Below, piece after piece: positions 1 to 62,763 of a DNA stretch of 64,000 nucleotides (the stretch's first letter is position 1; each line of letters opens with the position of its first letter). The translations under genes and the position numbers were made by a program. Source of the DNA: Candidatus Melainabacteria bacterium (GTDB taxonomy: Bacteria; Cyanobacteriota; Vampirovibrionia; 2-02-FULL-35-15); NCBI GenBank assembly GCA_016201905.1, contig JACQBQ010000036.1, forward strand, positions 1 to 64,000, given 5' to 3'. Under the pieces are notes generated by a model. That model did not search any database and was not told the DNA's origin. It saw nothing but the letters and a program-made list of their open reading frames with translations.

Positions 1-377
1 AGAACATATGGCTAATCGTTATGTCAGGTGTTACAAATCTATTTACACTAAACTTGAAATGAGAGCTGCTCATCTAGCTCATACATTCTCAAAATGGGTT
101 AAGCTGCTTTTGAATATAATTTTTCACAAGTCGTTAGAATATCTCCTGAGTCTAGCCCAAAGACTGTCTGTAATAACTGGCTTATTAATAACTCTCATAT
201 ATAATACCTAAGCAGTTTCTAATAAATCTGCATATAGTATTTTTAACAAACTGTCTCTTTAACAATCAAGTCTTAAAGATTAAATTATTCTAAAGCTGAC
301 TCTTAACTTTATAGTGCACTTCTAAAAACACCTTCAACGAACTCTTTTGTTAATTGACTATAATTTAATCTTTGCAT

Positions 378-392
378 GTAACCGTAGGTATC
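378..392 (+). promoter_or_regulatory. palindromic operator-like site GTAACCGTAGGTATC, followed by N22-TATACT-N6-ATG
   Basis: read directly; similar palindromes upstream of the two paralogous modules. Confidence 0.55.
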
Positions 393-426
393 ATGTTTTT
401 GAAATGCTTTAAGTTATACTCTCAGC

Positions 427-666
427 ATGAATACTGAGATTCAGAAGTATAGAGCACAATTTTTTCAGATTAGTGGATTTTGTTTAATGACACCATTTGG
501 CAAGACTGTGCTAAGTTTTCTTGACTATGATTTTAGCAAGATAGGGACAAAGCTTTTGTTATACGTAGTTGTGGCACTGGTTCTTGCTTATCTAGGCATA
601 ATATGTATACTTAAAGGTGAAGAACACCTTGAGGGAAGAAGAAAAGAAAAATGGACCTACAAATAG
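427..666 (+). CDS. small two-TM membrane protein, module copy A
   Basis: ORF with two hydrophobic segments; shares MxTExQKY...GFxxxxP with ORFs at 26295-26498(-) and 60483-60695(-). Confidence 0.75.
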   Translation: MNTEIQKYRAQFFQISGFCLMTPFGKTVLSFLDYDFSKIGTKLLLYVVVALVLAYLGIICILKGEEHLEGRRKEKWTYK

Positions 667-776
667 TAATATTCTTAGTTTCAATTTTAGTATTCCTATC
701 TGGTCTTATGGTTATATACTTTAGGTTTGAAAAGCATAGACTTGAAGAAGAAAAAGAACATAAAAAGCTATCATAA
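651..776 (+). CDS. single-TM micropeptide (41 aa: MDLQIVIFLVSILVFLSGLMVIYFRFEKHRLEEEKEHKKLS), module copy A
   Basis: hand translation; overlaps upstream ORF by 16 nt; GAGGGAAG RBS-like sequence upstream; same architecture in copies B and C. Confidence 0.65.
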   Translation: MDLQIVIFLVSILVFLSGLMVIYFRFEKHRLEEEKEHKKLS

Positions 777-2000
777 TGCAGTCCTGTAAACGCTTTCAAC
801 AAGCTCTTTTGTAATGGGCTGTAGAGGATTGGTCAAAGCAGCAATATCCTTTATAGCATTTTGTGCCATAACCTCAATGTCACTTACTTTCACCCCACAT
901 TCTGAAAGTCTTGGTGGTATACCAATGTCTTTGTTTAATTTTTCAATTTCTAAAATAAACTTATCTGCGATTTCATTGTCAGAAGAATTATTTTGTGGAC
1001 TAATGCCAAAAGCAGTTGCCATAATAGCGTATTTTGGTGCAACAACTTTTTTGTTTATTTTTAAAACATGGGGCAGCATAATGGCATTTGCAAGTCCGTG
1101 AGGAAGATTACACTGACTGGAAAGTTGATGAGAACAAGCATGTACAAGTCCAACCGATTTTTGGTTAAAAGCCATGCCAGCTATAGCGCTGGCAAGTGCC
1201 ATGTTTACTCTGGCTATAACATCTTTGCCGTCAGAATATGACTTTTTTAAATTTTGATAAATAATAGATATTGCCTGAAGTGAAAACATATCTGCTACAG
1301 GGTTTACTCTAAGAGAAACAAATGCTTCTATTGCATGAGTCAGTGCATCCATACCACAGTAGGCTGTGAGCTTAGGTGGGCAGGACATAGTAAGCTGTGG
1401 ATCGATAAGTGCAATGGTTGAAATTAGAGGATAGCCTAAAATTGTTACTTTGTTTTTTTCACTTGTTACCATTGCTACGATTGAAACTTCTGAACCAGTT
1501 CCACTTGTAGTAGGAATACTTATCTGATGTGGTAGCTGTTCATGAACAGCCATAATAGTAGATTTAGTAGCATCATAGTCAGATGGTTTCCCGCCTTGCC
1601 TAGCTATAAGCCTGATAACTTTTGCAGCATCCATAACGCTGCCCCCGCCAATTGCAATTACAATGTCAGAACCTGAGCTTTTAAACTTTTCAGCTGCTTT
1701 TATAACTGTTTCTTCTTTTGGATTTGGCTCAACCTCATTAAAAATAGAGGACTGAATCCCACTTTTTTCTAAATATCTCTGGACTTTATCTGGGAATCCA
1801 AGTTTTTCAATTTCAGCATCAGTTACGATAAATGCATTTTTTGCTTTTAAAAAAAGTGATAAAAATCCAATTCTGTTTAAGCATCCATATCCAAAAACGA
1901 TTTGTGGTGCAAAACTAAAACTAATAACACCAGTATCTAAAATCTGCCCTTTAATTGTTGGATCAATTAAAGGAAGGTTTAGTTCTTCTGTAGTAACCAC
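771..2000 (-). CDS. iron-containing alcohol dehydrogenase
   Basis: GGGSVMDAAK nucleotide motif and HACSHQL...LPHG metal-binding histidines. Confidence 0.9.
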   Translation of the reverse strand: MVTTEELNLPLIDPTIKGQILDTGVISFSFAPQIVFGYGCLNRIGFLSLFLKAKNAFIVTDAEIEKLGFPDKVQRYLEKSGIQSSIFNEVEPNPKEETVIKAAEKFKSSGSDIVIAIGGGSVMDAAKVIRLIARQGGKPSDYDATKSTIMAVHEQLPHQISIPTTSGTGSEVSIVAMVTSEKNKVTILGYPLISTIALIDPQLTMSCPPKLTAYCGMDALTHAIEAFVSLRVNPVADMFSLQAISIIYQNLKKSYSDGKDVIARVNMALASAIAGMAFNQKSVGLVHACSHQLSSQCNLPHGLANAIMLPHVLKINKKVVAPKYAIMATAFGISPQNNSSDNEIADKFILEIEKLNKDIGIPPRLSECGVKVSDIEVMAQNAIKDIAALTNPLQPITKELVESVYRTAL

Positions 2001-5213: not shown

Positions 5214-5228
5214 TCTCCTTTTTTATTC

Positions 5229-5308
5229 CGGAAAAATCTCGCTTTGGACAAGATTTTTCCTTTTTCTTTTCGACGCTCAAGATATTGCTCCTCGCAACAT
5301 CTTTCGCT
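5229..5308 (-). repeat. ~80-nt structured leader/repeat upstream of groES (copy 1)
   Basis: near-identical arrangement at 55688-55768; contains GGAAAAATCT...AGATTTTTCC stem. Confidence 0.7.
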
Positions 5309-26165: not shown

Positions 26166-26291
26166 TTAACCTTTATTGTGCTTGTCTTTTTTGTTTTCTT
26201 TATATTGGTCATATAAAAAGATTCCTGCCAATGCTATTGCACCAAAAATAAGAATGCAGAAAGCTAATTCTCCTGATGGTTGAATATGCAT
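26166..26291 (-). CDS. single-TM micropeptide (41 aa: MHIQPSGELAFCILIFGAIALAGIFLYDQYKENKKDKHNKG), module copy B
   Basis: hand translation; starts 3 nt after the stop of the upstream paralog; AGGAG RBS. Confidence 0.65.
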   Translation of the reverse strand: MHIQPSGELAFCILIFGAIALAGIFLYDQYKENKKDKHNKG

Positions 26292-26294
26292 TTT

Positions 26295-26498
26295 TTACCT
26301 CTCCTTTAAAACAAAGTAACCATTTGCCAGAAATATAAAACCCAATAAAAATATTATCACAGCAGCATTAAAATTACCCACAAACAAGTCTTTTTTGAAA
26401 ACAACCCACTGAAAAACCAATGACGCTAGTGGTGTTGACAATGCAAAGCCACTAGTCCTTAATGAAACAGAAATATATTTTTGTTTCTCACTTACCAC
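26295..26498 (-). CDS. small two-TM membrane protein, module copy B
   Basis: (V)SEKQKY...SGFALSTPL...YFVLKER; GTG start. Confidence 0.75.
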   Translation of the reverse strand: MVSEKQKYISVSLRTSGFALSTPLASLVFQWVVFKKDLFVGNFNAAVIIFLLGFIFLANGYFVLKER

Positions 26499-26575
26499 AT
26501 AAGAAAATATAACAAAAATAAAACCCTTTGATAATCAGGTAATTTCTCTGATTCAATTAAGAACAAAAAATAAAT

Positions 26576-26590
26576 GTAACCTATGGTATC
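26576..26590 (-). promoter_or_regulatory. operator-like palindrome GATACCATAGGTTAC (gene sense), N64-TATATT-N7-GTG
   Basis: read directly. Confidence 0.45.
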
Positions 26591-26609
26591 AAAAATATAA
26601 CGATTTTTT

Positions 26610-34140: not shown

Positions 34141-34153
34141 AAAATTAGGTAAT

Positions 34154-34168
34154 GTAACCATAGGTTAC
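34154..34168 (+). promoter_or_regulatory. operator-like palindrome GTAACCATAGGTTAC upstream of RAYT
   Basis: same consensus as upstream of small-membrane modules; function uncertain here. Confidence 0.35.
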
Positions 34169-34204
34169 AGAAAATTTCATTTCATTTGGTTAACATATAA
34201 TCAA

Positions 34205-34747
34205 ATGAAATCCAGATACAATTCAAACATTCACCATCGTCGTTCAATAAGATTGAAGGAATATGATTATTCACAAGATGGTTATTATTTTGTGACCATT
34301 TGTACAAAAAATCGTGAATGTTTTTTTGGTGATGTTATTGATGGGAAAATGGAATTGTCCCCAATGGGTGGGATTGCCAATGAATGTTGGAATGATATTC
34401 CGAAACATTTTAGTAACGTTTTGTTGGATGTATTTGCCATAATGCCGAACCATTTGCATGGGATTATTGTTATTGACAATGTAGGGACATACCATGGTAT
34501 GTCCCTACGGCAATTTGCAAAACCGATTTCGAAATCATTATCAATGATAATCAATCAATTCAAATCATCCGTTAAACGTCAATGTAATAAAAATGGTTTT
34601 GAATATTTTGGGTGGCAACGCAATTATTATGAAAATGTAATCCGCAATGAAATTGCATTGGATAATATACGCGAATACATCATTAATAATCTAATCCAAT
34701 GGAAATTTGATAGAAATAACCCCAAAAACCTCTCTACGGTAAAATGA
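34205..34747 (+). mobile_element. REP-associated tyrosine transposase (RAYT, Y1_Tnp)
   Basis: RRSIRLKEYDYSQDGYYFVTICTKNRECFFGD; MPNHLHGIIVI HxH motif; FGWQRNYYENVIRNE. Confidence 0.93.
34481..34508. repeat. 28-nt perfect palindrome inside the RAYT gene
   Basis: GTAGGGACATACCATGGTATGTCCCTAC. Confidence 0.9.
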
Positions 34748-34760
34748 TAATCATAAACAT

Positions 34761-35975
34761 ATGACGACCACAATATTAGAAAAACCAAAAACATTTGAAA
34801 ATTCCTGGCCACCAGAAGCCAGTAAAATTGCTGTTTGTATGAGCGGTGGTGTTGATAGCAGTGTTAGCACATATATCATTCGTAAAAAAGGATATGAAAC
34901 TGTTGGTTTGACAGGATGGCTTATTAAAGGCGCCGGACGTTGCTGTGATAATGGAATGGTAGATGCAGCCAAGGTTTGTGAACAAATTGGTGTTAATCAT
35001 ATTTCAAAAGATTTGAGAATATTTTTTAAACAGGAAATCGTAGATCCATTTATAAATTCCTATAGTATAGGCTCAACACCAATACCGTGCATTACATGCA
35101 ATACAACTATCAAATGGGGCTCGCTTATGAAATATGCATTTGATGAGTTAAATTGTTCGCACATTGCAACAGGTCACTATGCAAAACTTATAAAAGATAA
35201 TGATGTTTTTAAAATTGTCCGTCCAAAAGATTTGAAAAAAGATCAGACATTTATGCTATGGGGATTAACCCAGGAAGTACTCTCTAGAACTGTATTTCCA
35301 CTCGGTGATCTAATCAAGGATGAAGTCAGAAAAATTGCAAAAGAAGGAGATCTTATTGTTGCAGATAAAGAAGAGAGTCAGGATATTTGTTTTGTATCAA
35401 ATAAAGAAGGTACACAAGGGTTTTTAGGAAAATATTTAGAATTAAAAGAGGGCCACATCATTGAGAATAAAACAGGAAAGGTTTTAGGTACTCACGAGGG
35501 CACACATAATTACACTATTGGTCAAAGAAAAGGACTTGGCATAGCTTTTAGCGAGCCGCTTTATGTAGTCAAGTTAGACATTGAACAAAACATTGTCTAT
35601 GCAGGTACAAAAGATGAACTTGAAGGTTTTGAACTTGTTGCAAAAGATGTTAATTGGCTTTTTCCTCAGCACATCAGCACATCGGCACATCAGCACATCA
35701 GCACATCGGCACATCGGCACATCAGCACATCGGCACATCAGCACATCAGCACATCGGCACATCAGCACATCAGCACATCAGTACATAAGCACATCAAAGT
35801 AATGGCAAAAATCCGCTACAACAGCAAAACATATCCAGCAAAAGTTGAAGCACTAGAAGATAATTGTCTAAAAGTCACATTCGATGAACCTCAGTCAGCC
35901 ATTACTCCGGGTCAAGCCTGTGTTTTTTATGATGAGAGTGATCAAGTTCTTCTAGGTGGTGGGTGGATTACTTAG
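34761..35975 (+). CDS. mnmA: tRNA 2-thiouridylase MnmA
   Basis: VCMSGGVDSSV, PIPCITCNTTIKWG, TIGQRKGLGIA; contains low-complexity HISTSAHQ repeat. Confidence 0.95.
   Translation: MTTTILEKPKTFENSWPPEASKIAVCMSGGVDSSVSTYIIRKKGYETVGLTGWLIKGAGRCCDNGMVDAAKVCEQIGVNHISKDLRIFFKQEIVDPFINSYSIGSTPIPCITCNTTIKWGSLMKYAFDELNCSHIATGHYAKLIKDNDVFKIVRPKDLKKDQTFMLWGLTQEVLSRTVFPLGDLIKDEVRKIAKEGDLIVADKEESQDICFVSNKEGTQGFLGKYLELKEGHIIENKTGKVLGTHEGTHNYTIGQRKGLGIAFSEPLYVVKLDIEQNIVYAGTKDELEGFELVAKDVNWLFPQHISTSAHQHISTSAHRHISTSAHQHISTSAHQHISTSVHKHIKVMAKIRYNSKTYPAKVEALEDNCLKVTFDEPQSAITPGQACVFYDESDQVLLGGGWIT
35669..35796 (+). repeat. 16-copy octanucleotide tandem repeat (GCACATCR) within mnmA
   Basis: counted directly; encodes 8-aa period HISTSAH(Q/R). 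Confidence 0.95.
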
Positions 35976-55677: not shown

Positions 55678-55687
55678 TTATTTTTAT

Positions 55688-55768
55688 CGGAAAAATCTCG
55701 CTTTGAACAAGATTTTTCCTTTTCCTTCACGACGCTCAGGATATTCCTCAATCGGAACACCCTTCGCT
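55688..55768 (-). repeat. ~80-nt structured leader/repeat upstream of mrp (copy 2)
   Basis: matches 5229-5308. Confidence 0.7.
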
Positions 55769-60136: not shown

Positions 60137-60379
60137 GTGTATATTACCAAATTAAAAACAGCCAATATTCACGAAGTAGATGTAAACGAACTGCCCGATA
60201 AGAAGCTAATTGGCAGACTTCTTTTGGAAGAGACTATAAAATTTCCTGGTGATATTTTAATAATGGATAATAAAAGTTATATTACTGTTGAAAAAGTACA
60301 TCATTATTATTTTGATGGGGCAAAATATCAGTTTGCAAAGACAAGCTTACACGTAAAAGCACTTAAAAATTTTTGCTAG
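60137..60379 (+). CDS. hypothetical small protein
   Basis: ORF only. Confidence 0.45.
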   Translation: MYITKLKTANIHEVDVNELPDKKLIGRLLLEETIKFPGDILIMDNKSYITVEKVHHYYFDGAKYQFAKTSLHVKALKNFC

Positions 60380-60486
60380 CTTTTCTTTTCTTTCTTGTTA
60401 GCATCTTTAACTGCAATATAAGCATATAGAAGAGCTGGAACAGCTAAAAATAAAATAGCTATAAAAAGTTTAAGATCTTCACTCAT
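60376..60486 (-). CDS. single-TM micropeptide (36 aa: MSEDLKLFIAILFLAVPALLYAYIAVKDANKKEKKS), module copy C
   Basis: ATGA overlap with upstream paralog stop; AGGAG RBS. Confidence 0.7.
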   Translation of the reverse strand: MSEDLKLFIAILFLAVPALLYAYIAVKDANKKEKKS

Positions 60487-60695
60487 TTTTTATTTTTCTC
60501 CTTTAAAACAAATCTTCCTGAGTAAAGCAGAATTAAACCAAGTACACATACAATTATACCCATAATCAGACTTGTGCCTGAAATGCTCTTATTAGATACA
60601 ATCTTTTGAAATGCTATTGAACCAAGTGGTGCTAAAAAAGCAAAACCAATGTTTCTGAAAATACTAGAATCATACTTTTGCTCTTCAGTGATCAT
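60483..60695 (-). CDS. small two-TM membrane protein, module copy C
   Basis: MITEEQKY...IGFAFLAPLG...GRFVLKEK; start moved from 60842 to Met at 60695 by homology and promoter position. Confidence 0.75.
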   Translation of the reverse strand: MITEEQKYDSSIFRNIGFAFLAPLGSIAFQKIVSNKSISGTSLIMGIIVCVLGLILLYSGRFVLKEKNKK

Positions 60696-60730
60696 ACTGA
60701 TGAATATAGCAAAAGTTCTCTTAAAGGTCT

Positions 60731-60745
60731 GTAACCAAAGGTTAC
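60731..60745 (-). promoter_or_regulatory. operator-like palindrome GTAACCTTTGGTTAC (sense), N22-TATATT-N7-ATG
   Basis: read directly. Confidence 0.6.
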
Positions 60746-60775
60746 ATCTTGAAAATTTAATAAAGTTTAATTTTT

Positions 60776-60796
60776 TATGTAACCATTGGTTACATA
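60776..60796. promoter_or_regulatory. second operator-like palindrome TATGTAACCATTGGTTACATA
   Basis: same consensus, 48 bp centre-to-centre from the proximal site; overlaps 3' end of ftsY. Confidence 0.5.
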
Positions 60797-61887: not shown

Positions 61888-62763
61888 ATGGTTAGTTTAT
61901 TAAATGGAGTACATGAATTAGTCCAAAGAAATAATACTTTAAGTCCACTATTAAATGAAGAGTTTAAAAAGGGAAGAAAACCTTCAGGCATATATTTTAA
62001 AAAAGATGACAAAGCAAGCAGTGGGGGAGCAAGCGGGTCTTTAGATGAAACAGTTAAAGGATTAATTAATGATTTAAAAAATAAAAACTCAAATATTAGA
62101 ATAAATACGCTTCAAGTTCTCGTGAGATTAGGAGAAGAGGCAAATGCTGCAGTACCGGTATTAATTAAAAAATTGAAGAGTGAAAAAGATCTAAGTGTTC
62201 GAAACTATGTGGTATATACAATTGGTTCTATGGGAGAAAAAGCAGTACCAAGATTAATTAAAGTATTGAAGGATGAAGATCCTGGTATTCGAAAAGGTGC
62301 AGCACAAGCTCTTGAAAGAATAGGAGAAAAAGCAAGTGCTGCAGTACCAGCATTAATTGAAACTTTAAAAGATGAAGATAAAGATGTTCGAGCTTATACA
62401 GCAAGTGCTCTTACAAAAATAGGAGAAGCAGCAGTACCAGCATTAATTAATATATTGAATGATGAGAACTTAGATATTCAAAGATGTGCTGTAAATATTC
62501 TCGGAGGAATAGGAGAAAAAGCAGTACCAGGATTAATGAAGTCATTTGAGAATGGAACCTCAAACGTTCAAACTCAATCCGATGCATTATGGACTCTTCA
62601 ACACATAGGAGAAAAAGCAGTACCAGTGCTAATGAAAATAGCATTGAATCACCAAAATCCAACCATTAGAGAAGGTGCGGCAGATGCTATTGGAAAAATA
62701 GGTGAAAAGAACAATTACCATAGAGTAATGGTAGAACTAATTAAGGCTCTAGGGAAAAAATAA
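61888..62763 (+). CDS. HEAT-repeat (PBS-lyase-like) protein
   Basis: repeated AVPxLIxxLKDEDxxIRxxAAxALxxIGEKA units. Confidence 0.88.
   Translation: MVSLLNGVHELVQRNNTLSPLLNEEFKKGRKPSGIYFKKDDKASSGGASGSLDETVKGLINDLKNKNSNIRINTLQVLVRLGEEANAAVPVLIKKLKSEKDLSVRNYVVYTIGSMGEKAVPRLIKVLKDEDPGIRKGAAQALERIGEKASAAVPALIETLKDEDKDVRAYTASALTKIGEAAVPALINILNDENLDIQRCAVNILGGIGEKAVPGLMKSFENGTSNVQTQSDALWTLQHIGEKAVPVLMKIALNHQNPTIREGAADAIGKIGEKNNYHRVMVELIKALGKK

Follow-up and report, generated by a model that had tools for sequence, protein, structure and literature searches.

Two families of non-photosynthetic Cyanobacteria (Ca. Melainabacteria) are hosts to a small gene cassette in which a two-transmembrane (two-TM) hairpin protein is followed by a single-TM micropeptide, and these cassettes suggest a novel family of small membrane proteins with a link to DNA uptake. 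The cassette is ~430 bp in size and consists of an operator, a promoter, ORF1 (the two-TM protein), and ORF2 (the micropeptide). Since the putative operator of one of these families (f1) is common to the cassettes and to dprA, comM, recJ, and mutL, we place the cassette, from sequence, in a candidate competence regulon, that is, the regulon of the genes that process DNA in natural transformation. Here, "the window" is the whole 64,000-nt stretch that was analyzed; it belongs to an f1 genome of 2.28 Mb in 59 contigs (G000).

Anatomy of the cassettes

The window holds three copies (A, B, and C), with the following features.

311..350, no strand: 40-nt imperfect direct repeat, 78% identical to 773-812, upstream of copy A
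377..393, + strand: copy A putative operator palindrome TGTAACCGTAGGTATCA, 2 mismatches, 33 nt 5' of the start codon
415..420, + strand: copy A -10 box TATACT, 6 nt 5' of the ATG, suggesting a leaderless transcript
427..666, + strand: copy A ORF1, two-TM hairpin protein, 79 aa
651..776, + strand: copy A ORF2, single-TM micropeptide, 41 aa, overlapping ORF1 by 16 nt
771-2000, - strand: iron-type alcohol dehydrogenase (adh) gene, whose 3' end holds repeat 773-812
773..812, no strand: partner of the 311..350 repeat, in the 3' end of the dehydrogenase gene
26166..26291, - strand: copy B ORF2, single-TM micropeptide, 41 aa, Shine-Dalgarno (SD) sequence AAAGGAG, 3-nt gap to ORF1
26295..26498, - strand: copy B ORF1, two-TM protein, 67 aa, GTG start, coming after ruvA
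26506..26511, - strand: copy B -10 box TATATT
26575..26591, - strand: copy B putative operator TGATACCATAGGTTACA, of the far class, 76 nt 5' of the start
60376..60486, - strand: copy C ORF2, single-TM micropeptide, 36 aa, ATGA overlap, SD AAAGGAG
60483..60695, - strand: copy C ORF1, two-TM protein, 70 aa, AF2 helices 4-34 and 40-69
60703..60708, - strand: copy C -10 box TATATT
60730..60746, - strand: copy C proximal putative operator TGTAACCTTTGGTTACA, 34 nt 5' of the start
60778..60794, - strand: copy C distal putative operator TGTAACCAATGGTTACA, in which the TAA is the ftsY stop codon

The repeats at 311..350 and 773..812 stand on either side of copy A. The mechanical ORF of copy C extends to 60842; its start was set at the conserved position, 60695, because homology puts it there. 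The coordinates and couplings given in the initial annotation (16-nt overlap, 3-nt gap, and ATGA) all hold, as does its grouping of the three two-TM proteins into one family. These are alignable over their length at 30-42% pairwise identity, with E, QKY, GF, and P invariant, and a search of their own genome with copy C as the query recovered both A (E=4e-4) and B (E=1e-10).

That annotation had counted the module three times, which is right for the window and wrong for the genome, where the search found 17 copies; behind each of them stands a short ORF, the micropeptide, whose single TM helix is joined to a charged tail that is usually rich in Lys. The module is also present in all ten further f1 genomes (3-17 copies) and in a second family of the class (1-28 copies per genome). 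A class-wide sample returned it in 21 of 197 genomes, every one from these two families. The copies of the second family include tandem arrays with many pairs at ~450-bp spacing, in which the tail of the micropeptide hardly changes (e.g., GELDPNKSFLENFFSA) and its TM part varies.

The window also carries repeats of other kinds: a dispersed 72-nt repeat, 86% identical (5219-5290 and 55678-55749); an 8-bp tandem repeat, TCAGCACA/TCGGCACA, of about 16 units (35666-35800) in the frame of ORF 34761-35975; and internal repeats of 90-99 nt, HEAT-like by eye, in ORF 61888-62763.

The protein pair

Short hydrophobic ORFs are commonly yielded by AT-rich DNA, and the micropeptides could on that ground be chance ORFs or over-annotation. 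Control gene ends refute this, and we consider its probability negligible. A TM-bearing small ORF at matching spacing lies downstream of 123 of the 129 two-TM ORFs collected (85/88 in f1 and 38/41 others) versus 20 of 281 control ORF ends. An SD-like site is present as well in 62 of the 85 f1 pairs, in 31 others, and in 3 controls. The f1 exceptions comprise one less hydrophobic micropeptide and two cases in which the two-TM ORF is broken or truncated. Among 118 micropeptides that start with ATG, 76 overlap ORF1 and 107 begin ≤16 nt from its stop codon.

Constraint at the codon level speaks against chance as well. Among gene pairs whose two-TM proteins share at least 50% identity, nonsynonymous changes are fewer than synonymous ones in both ORFs, the mean pN/pS being 0.26/0.63 in ORF1 and 0.38/0.67 in ORF2. 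The proposal that the micropeptides are real genes is borne out by their conserved pairing, this selection, and the SD sites. The initial annotation had named two outcomes that would undo it: in related genomes, a conserved two-TM ORF whose micropeptide frame is broken or lacks purifying selection, and two-TM proteins that are unrelated by profile search. Both were tested, and neither refuted it.

The divergence of ORF1 is correlated with that of ORF2 (r=0.48; 0 of 1000 permutations as high), and it is this correlation that bears on the complex which the initial annotation had proposed for the pair. In addition, the TM part of the micropeptide tracks the second half of ORF1 slightly better than the first (0.38 vs. 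0.28), a weak bias, but in the direction that would be expected if those helices touch. The AF2 model of copy C ORF1 is a two-helix hairpin (pLDDT 73), with both ends predicted to be cytoplasmic. Because the C-terminal tail is more basic than the N-terminus in 96% of f1 micropeptides, we infer an N-out/C-in orientation for ORF2.

The initial annotation had recognized no named family, and none was found here: the two-TM protein has no match above the curated cut-off, and sporadic weak ones only, in Pfam, PHROGs, NCBIfam, PADLOC, or PDB sequences, and a Pfam scan returned no relative of the micropeptide. The novelty would lie in the protein pair and its link to the regulon; in its biochemistry, the pair may still turn out to act in a known way. 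The pinholin S21, a hairpin of about 70 aa plus a partner, is similar in plan to this pair, for which no viral relative was found and whose two-TM protein has no PHROG match beyond noise. A phage (holin) origin was rejected, as no homologues were found in viral contigs or PHROGs.

The cassette has two adjacent coupled genes, as toxin-antitoxin systems do. With type I/membrane toxin-antitoxin systems (Hok, Ldr, TisB, and GhoT) it shares tiny TM proteins, many copies, and gain and loss, and it differs from them in that both partners are TM proteins and that the mRNA is predicted to be leaderless and operator-controlled. What bears on toxicity and an antidote role is a weak asymmetry of decay: about 7-8 decayed ORF1 genes stand beside an intact ORF2, compared with one altered ORF2; since length alone predicts about 2:1, this asymmetry is not significant, and it was dropped as a proof of toxin and antidote.

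The pairs might instead be accessory subunits of neighboring complexes, such as the cbb3 oxidase beside one cassette (C17a), with FixQ/CcoQ-like micropeptides. That cassette precedes genes that look by eye like ccoN/ccoO, and two micropeptides touch Pfam FixQ (best E=0.006), a similarity that we set aside as weak and shared by any TM helix with a charged tail. The neighbors, however, are different at almost every copy, and ruvA, ftsY, and hemB neighbors are unchanged where the cassette is missing. We disfavor this explanation and rate it very improbable.

A shared operator and a candidate competence regulon

The palindrome TGTAACCnnnGGTTACA lies upstream of 79 of 81 f1 cassettes, compared with 0.4% of shuffled sequences (≤3 mismatches, within 140 nt upstream). 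Site and start codon are most often 33-35 nt apart, and the remaining sites are mostly at 36-87 nt. Across 11 genomes the exact motif has 4-30 sites per genome, and the reversed motif has none. We read the palindrome as an operator because it is one-sided and its distance to the start codon recurs; for the same reasons, the alternative that it is the end of a RAYT-mobilized element was rejected.

A TATAAT-like -10 box follows, ~6-12 nt 5' of the ORF1 start codon. A box this near to the start implies that the ORF1 mRNA is probably leaderless; the micropeptide has its own SD. With the start codon as +1, the near site is centered at about -42, and several f1 promoters have a second site ~49 bp farther upstream. 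Class II and tandem CRP-type activation work from sites near -41.5 and from tandem sites, and the f1 site has the layout of CRP/FNR promoters (center near -41.5, with distal or tandem variants). It is because of this geometry that we call the operator a putative activator site. The f1 site, at 17 bp, does not match the even 16-bp palindrome of CRP type. One HTH_Crp_2 protein was found in G000, with the recognition helix RETVNR, which we take to be of CRP type. CRP itself was rejected as the regulator, since recognition helix and odd-length palindrome do not fit.

Alongside the cassettes, the site stands 33-37 nt before recJ, dprA, and comM (Pfam-checked) in most genomes examined, with one recJ at 74 nt. 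At mutL it falls on the start codon, the three spacer bases being the ATG or GTG itself (TGTAACC-ATG/GTG-GGTTACA), in four genomes: G000, G009, G005, and G007 (loci L052, L133, L145, and L157). A second site, full or degraded, is just upstream. Given this position, binding of a factor there should block mutL, and mismatch repair would then be reduced during DNA recombination. By eye, the gene ending just 5' of one dprA operator (L261) resembles the C-terminus of a FliA-type sigma factor.

The window offers a further apparent member of the regulon, with the same -10 and leaderless layout as the cassettes.

34153..34169, + strand: perfect f1 operator before the transposase gene
34205..34747, + strand: Y1 (IS200-like/RAYT-like) transposase, PF01797 E=7e-6

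More Y1-like transposase genes with the site occur in G000 and its relatives, and it is also found 5' of genes for RhuM/Fic, 23S-IVP, and BrnT-like proteins. ORF6N-like genes, one verified by Pfam and the others by eye, are among the commonest non-cassette neighbors of the operator (L060, L064, L135, L137, L139, L146, L147, L162, and L163). In several genomes the operator is also followed by genes for small secreted proteins that have a signal peptide and end in a Lys-rich tail (L058, L138, L140, and L169); these are possibly periplasmic DNA binders. At four loci, comEC had no f1 site within 3 mismatches, the gene start in G000 and G009 perhaps being near the locus edge.

Cassettes of the second family have an unrelated motif, GGAAWWWTGACCCCTWAAAA, with 33, 26, and 30 sites in three genomes versus 0-1 in the control. 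It lies 5' of comM in all three, which makes comM the non-cassette gene common to both operator regimes and means that the link between cassette and comM outlived the change of operator. An operator common to dprA and comM was found in f1; in the second family only comM was found with that family's own operator, which dprA of one genome (G033) lacks. The motif also precedes a repeated gene of G033 (L232, L235, and L238) that resembles an IS transposase, encodes 299 aa, is often at contig ends, and has no Pfam family above the cut-off.

The candidate regulon resembles known competence regulons (Haemophilus/Vibrio CRE-Sxy and Streptococcus ComX), in which dprA, comM, and further genes of DNA processing are controlled jointly through a single element, palindromic or of box type. 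It differs in operator sequence (TGTAACCnnnGGTTACA or GGAAWWWTGACCCCTWAAAA), in leaving comEC outside, and in being dominated by small membrane gene pairs.

One could argue that the regulon is a response to DNA damage or general stress, with the cassettes as TisB/SidA-like stress-induced small membrane proteins. RecJ and MutL are general repair proteins, and many stress-induced proteins are tiny membrane proteins. We nevertheless find this reading improbable: no recognizable recA, lexA, uvr, or umu gene was seen behind any f1 site examined, comM stays as the common non-cassette member after the change of operator, and both ComM and DprA are proteins of transformation (PMC11784430). The same paper reports that transformation in Vibrio cholerae is limited by RecJ, so the regulation may run in either sense; together with the comEC loci without a site and the G033 dprA without its family's operator, this means that "competence" may be too narrow a term.

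Gain, loss, and the possible role of the cassettes

Copy number varies inside one genus (3, 17, and 10), and syntenic loci include both filled and empty sites, as they do for mobile elements. Of 11 genomes, G000 has an intact cassette at the ruvA-amidase junction and G009 a decayed one, and the other nine have none there. After ftsY it is present in G000, G009, G010, and G007, and in G005 it lies farther downstream behind an inserted gene; it was not found there in G001, G002, G003, G004, or G008 (of these, G001 and G004 have an empty site), and in G006 no ftsY gene was found. The hemB site is filled in five genomes, with two-TM proteins only 43-56% identical to that of G000, and empty in G005. 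Types are also swapped between sites: the surE-site cassette of G010 is of the rplT-site type of G000 (72% identical), and the ftsY-site cassette of G007 is of the type at C31 of G000 (C31b; 69%).

A search for a transposase or integrase belonging to the cassettes, constant ends, terminal repeats, or a consistent target-site duplication found none. Duplicated 3' ends of neighboring genes flank copies A and C49 only, as imperfect duplications of adh (78% over 40 nt, copy A) and surE (85% over 53 nt, C49), as if these cassettes had entered with a piece of a related genome. Other flanking repeats were rejected as cassette ends, being dispersed repeats, short matches, or tandem copies instead.

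The reading that we tentatively put first, at somewhat less than an even chance, is that the two proteins make up a cognate complex in the inner membrane, produced in competence and encoded by an accessory, possibly selfish, element. It joins what was read from sequence (anatomy, pairing, operator, shared sites, gain and loss, and swapping) to a predicted leaderless mRNA, activation, and topology. A regulator would turn the cassettes on together with dprA, comM, and recJ, during DNA uptake and recombination. The activator-like operator and leaderless promoter would yield the ORF1 hairpin and, by translational coupling, ORF2, whose one TM helix would have its acidic N-terminus outside and its basic tail inside. 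Both products would insert together in the inner membrane, and the correlated divergence suggests that each pairs with its own partner and not with the ~16 other paralogues. In what is the weakest step, the hairpin may be the partner that acts on the membrane, with the micropeptide as the cognate regulator of the hairpin or as its antidote; effector plus antidote is our leading guess for the mechanism of the pair. The cassettes themselves would be accessory and probably selfish elements, which are gained and lost at intergenic sites and change type, and their carriage by transformation itself is plausible.

Close behind ranks the reading that the cassettes serve the host, which we regard as possible if unlikely. 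Here, the pairs would be a competence factor that protects or re-programs the envelope of cells taking up DNA, with variants in which they delay division, give immunity to lysis by siblings, or control membrane machinery, the copies being diversified by dosage or partner. The regulon shared with dprA, comM, recJ, and mutL, the purifying selection on both ORFs, and the hemB and rplT sites filled across genera favor it. A host function is also in keeping with the operon-like arrangement of several cassettes with host genes and with the conservation of some loci across genera. A precedent is the pneumococcal competence membrane protein ComM, which provides fratricide immunity and delays division (PMC5696345); compared by description, it is likewise membrane-acting and made in competence, but it is a single gene without a micropeptide partner. 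Against a host function are the copy numbers of 3-17 inside one genus, the frequent decay and empty sites, and the tandem arrays with divergent TM parts.

A fuller account of the accessory, possibly selfish cassette, which we hold to be rather unlikely as a whole, is that the cassettes are tied to the DNA-uptake program, are expressed only during uptake and recombination of DNA, spread by that process, are kept by the pairing of effector and antidote, and are re-fitted with a new operator. The new operator of the second family would then date from a switch of competence regulator in the host lineage. The genomes that hold the cassettes also have transposase-like genes with the same switch.

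With these cassettes, an uncultured branch of the Cyanobacteria gains a candidate competence regulon whose DNA motif is readable, and the commonest members of that candidate regulon are a membrane protein pair outside every library tested. The motif makes competence in these organisms checkable from transcriptomes, and the rewired operator of the sister family reveals which parts of the regulon persist. The cassettes also raise the question of what a cell needs, or what harms it, at the membrane during DNA uptake.
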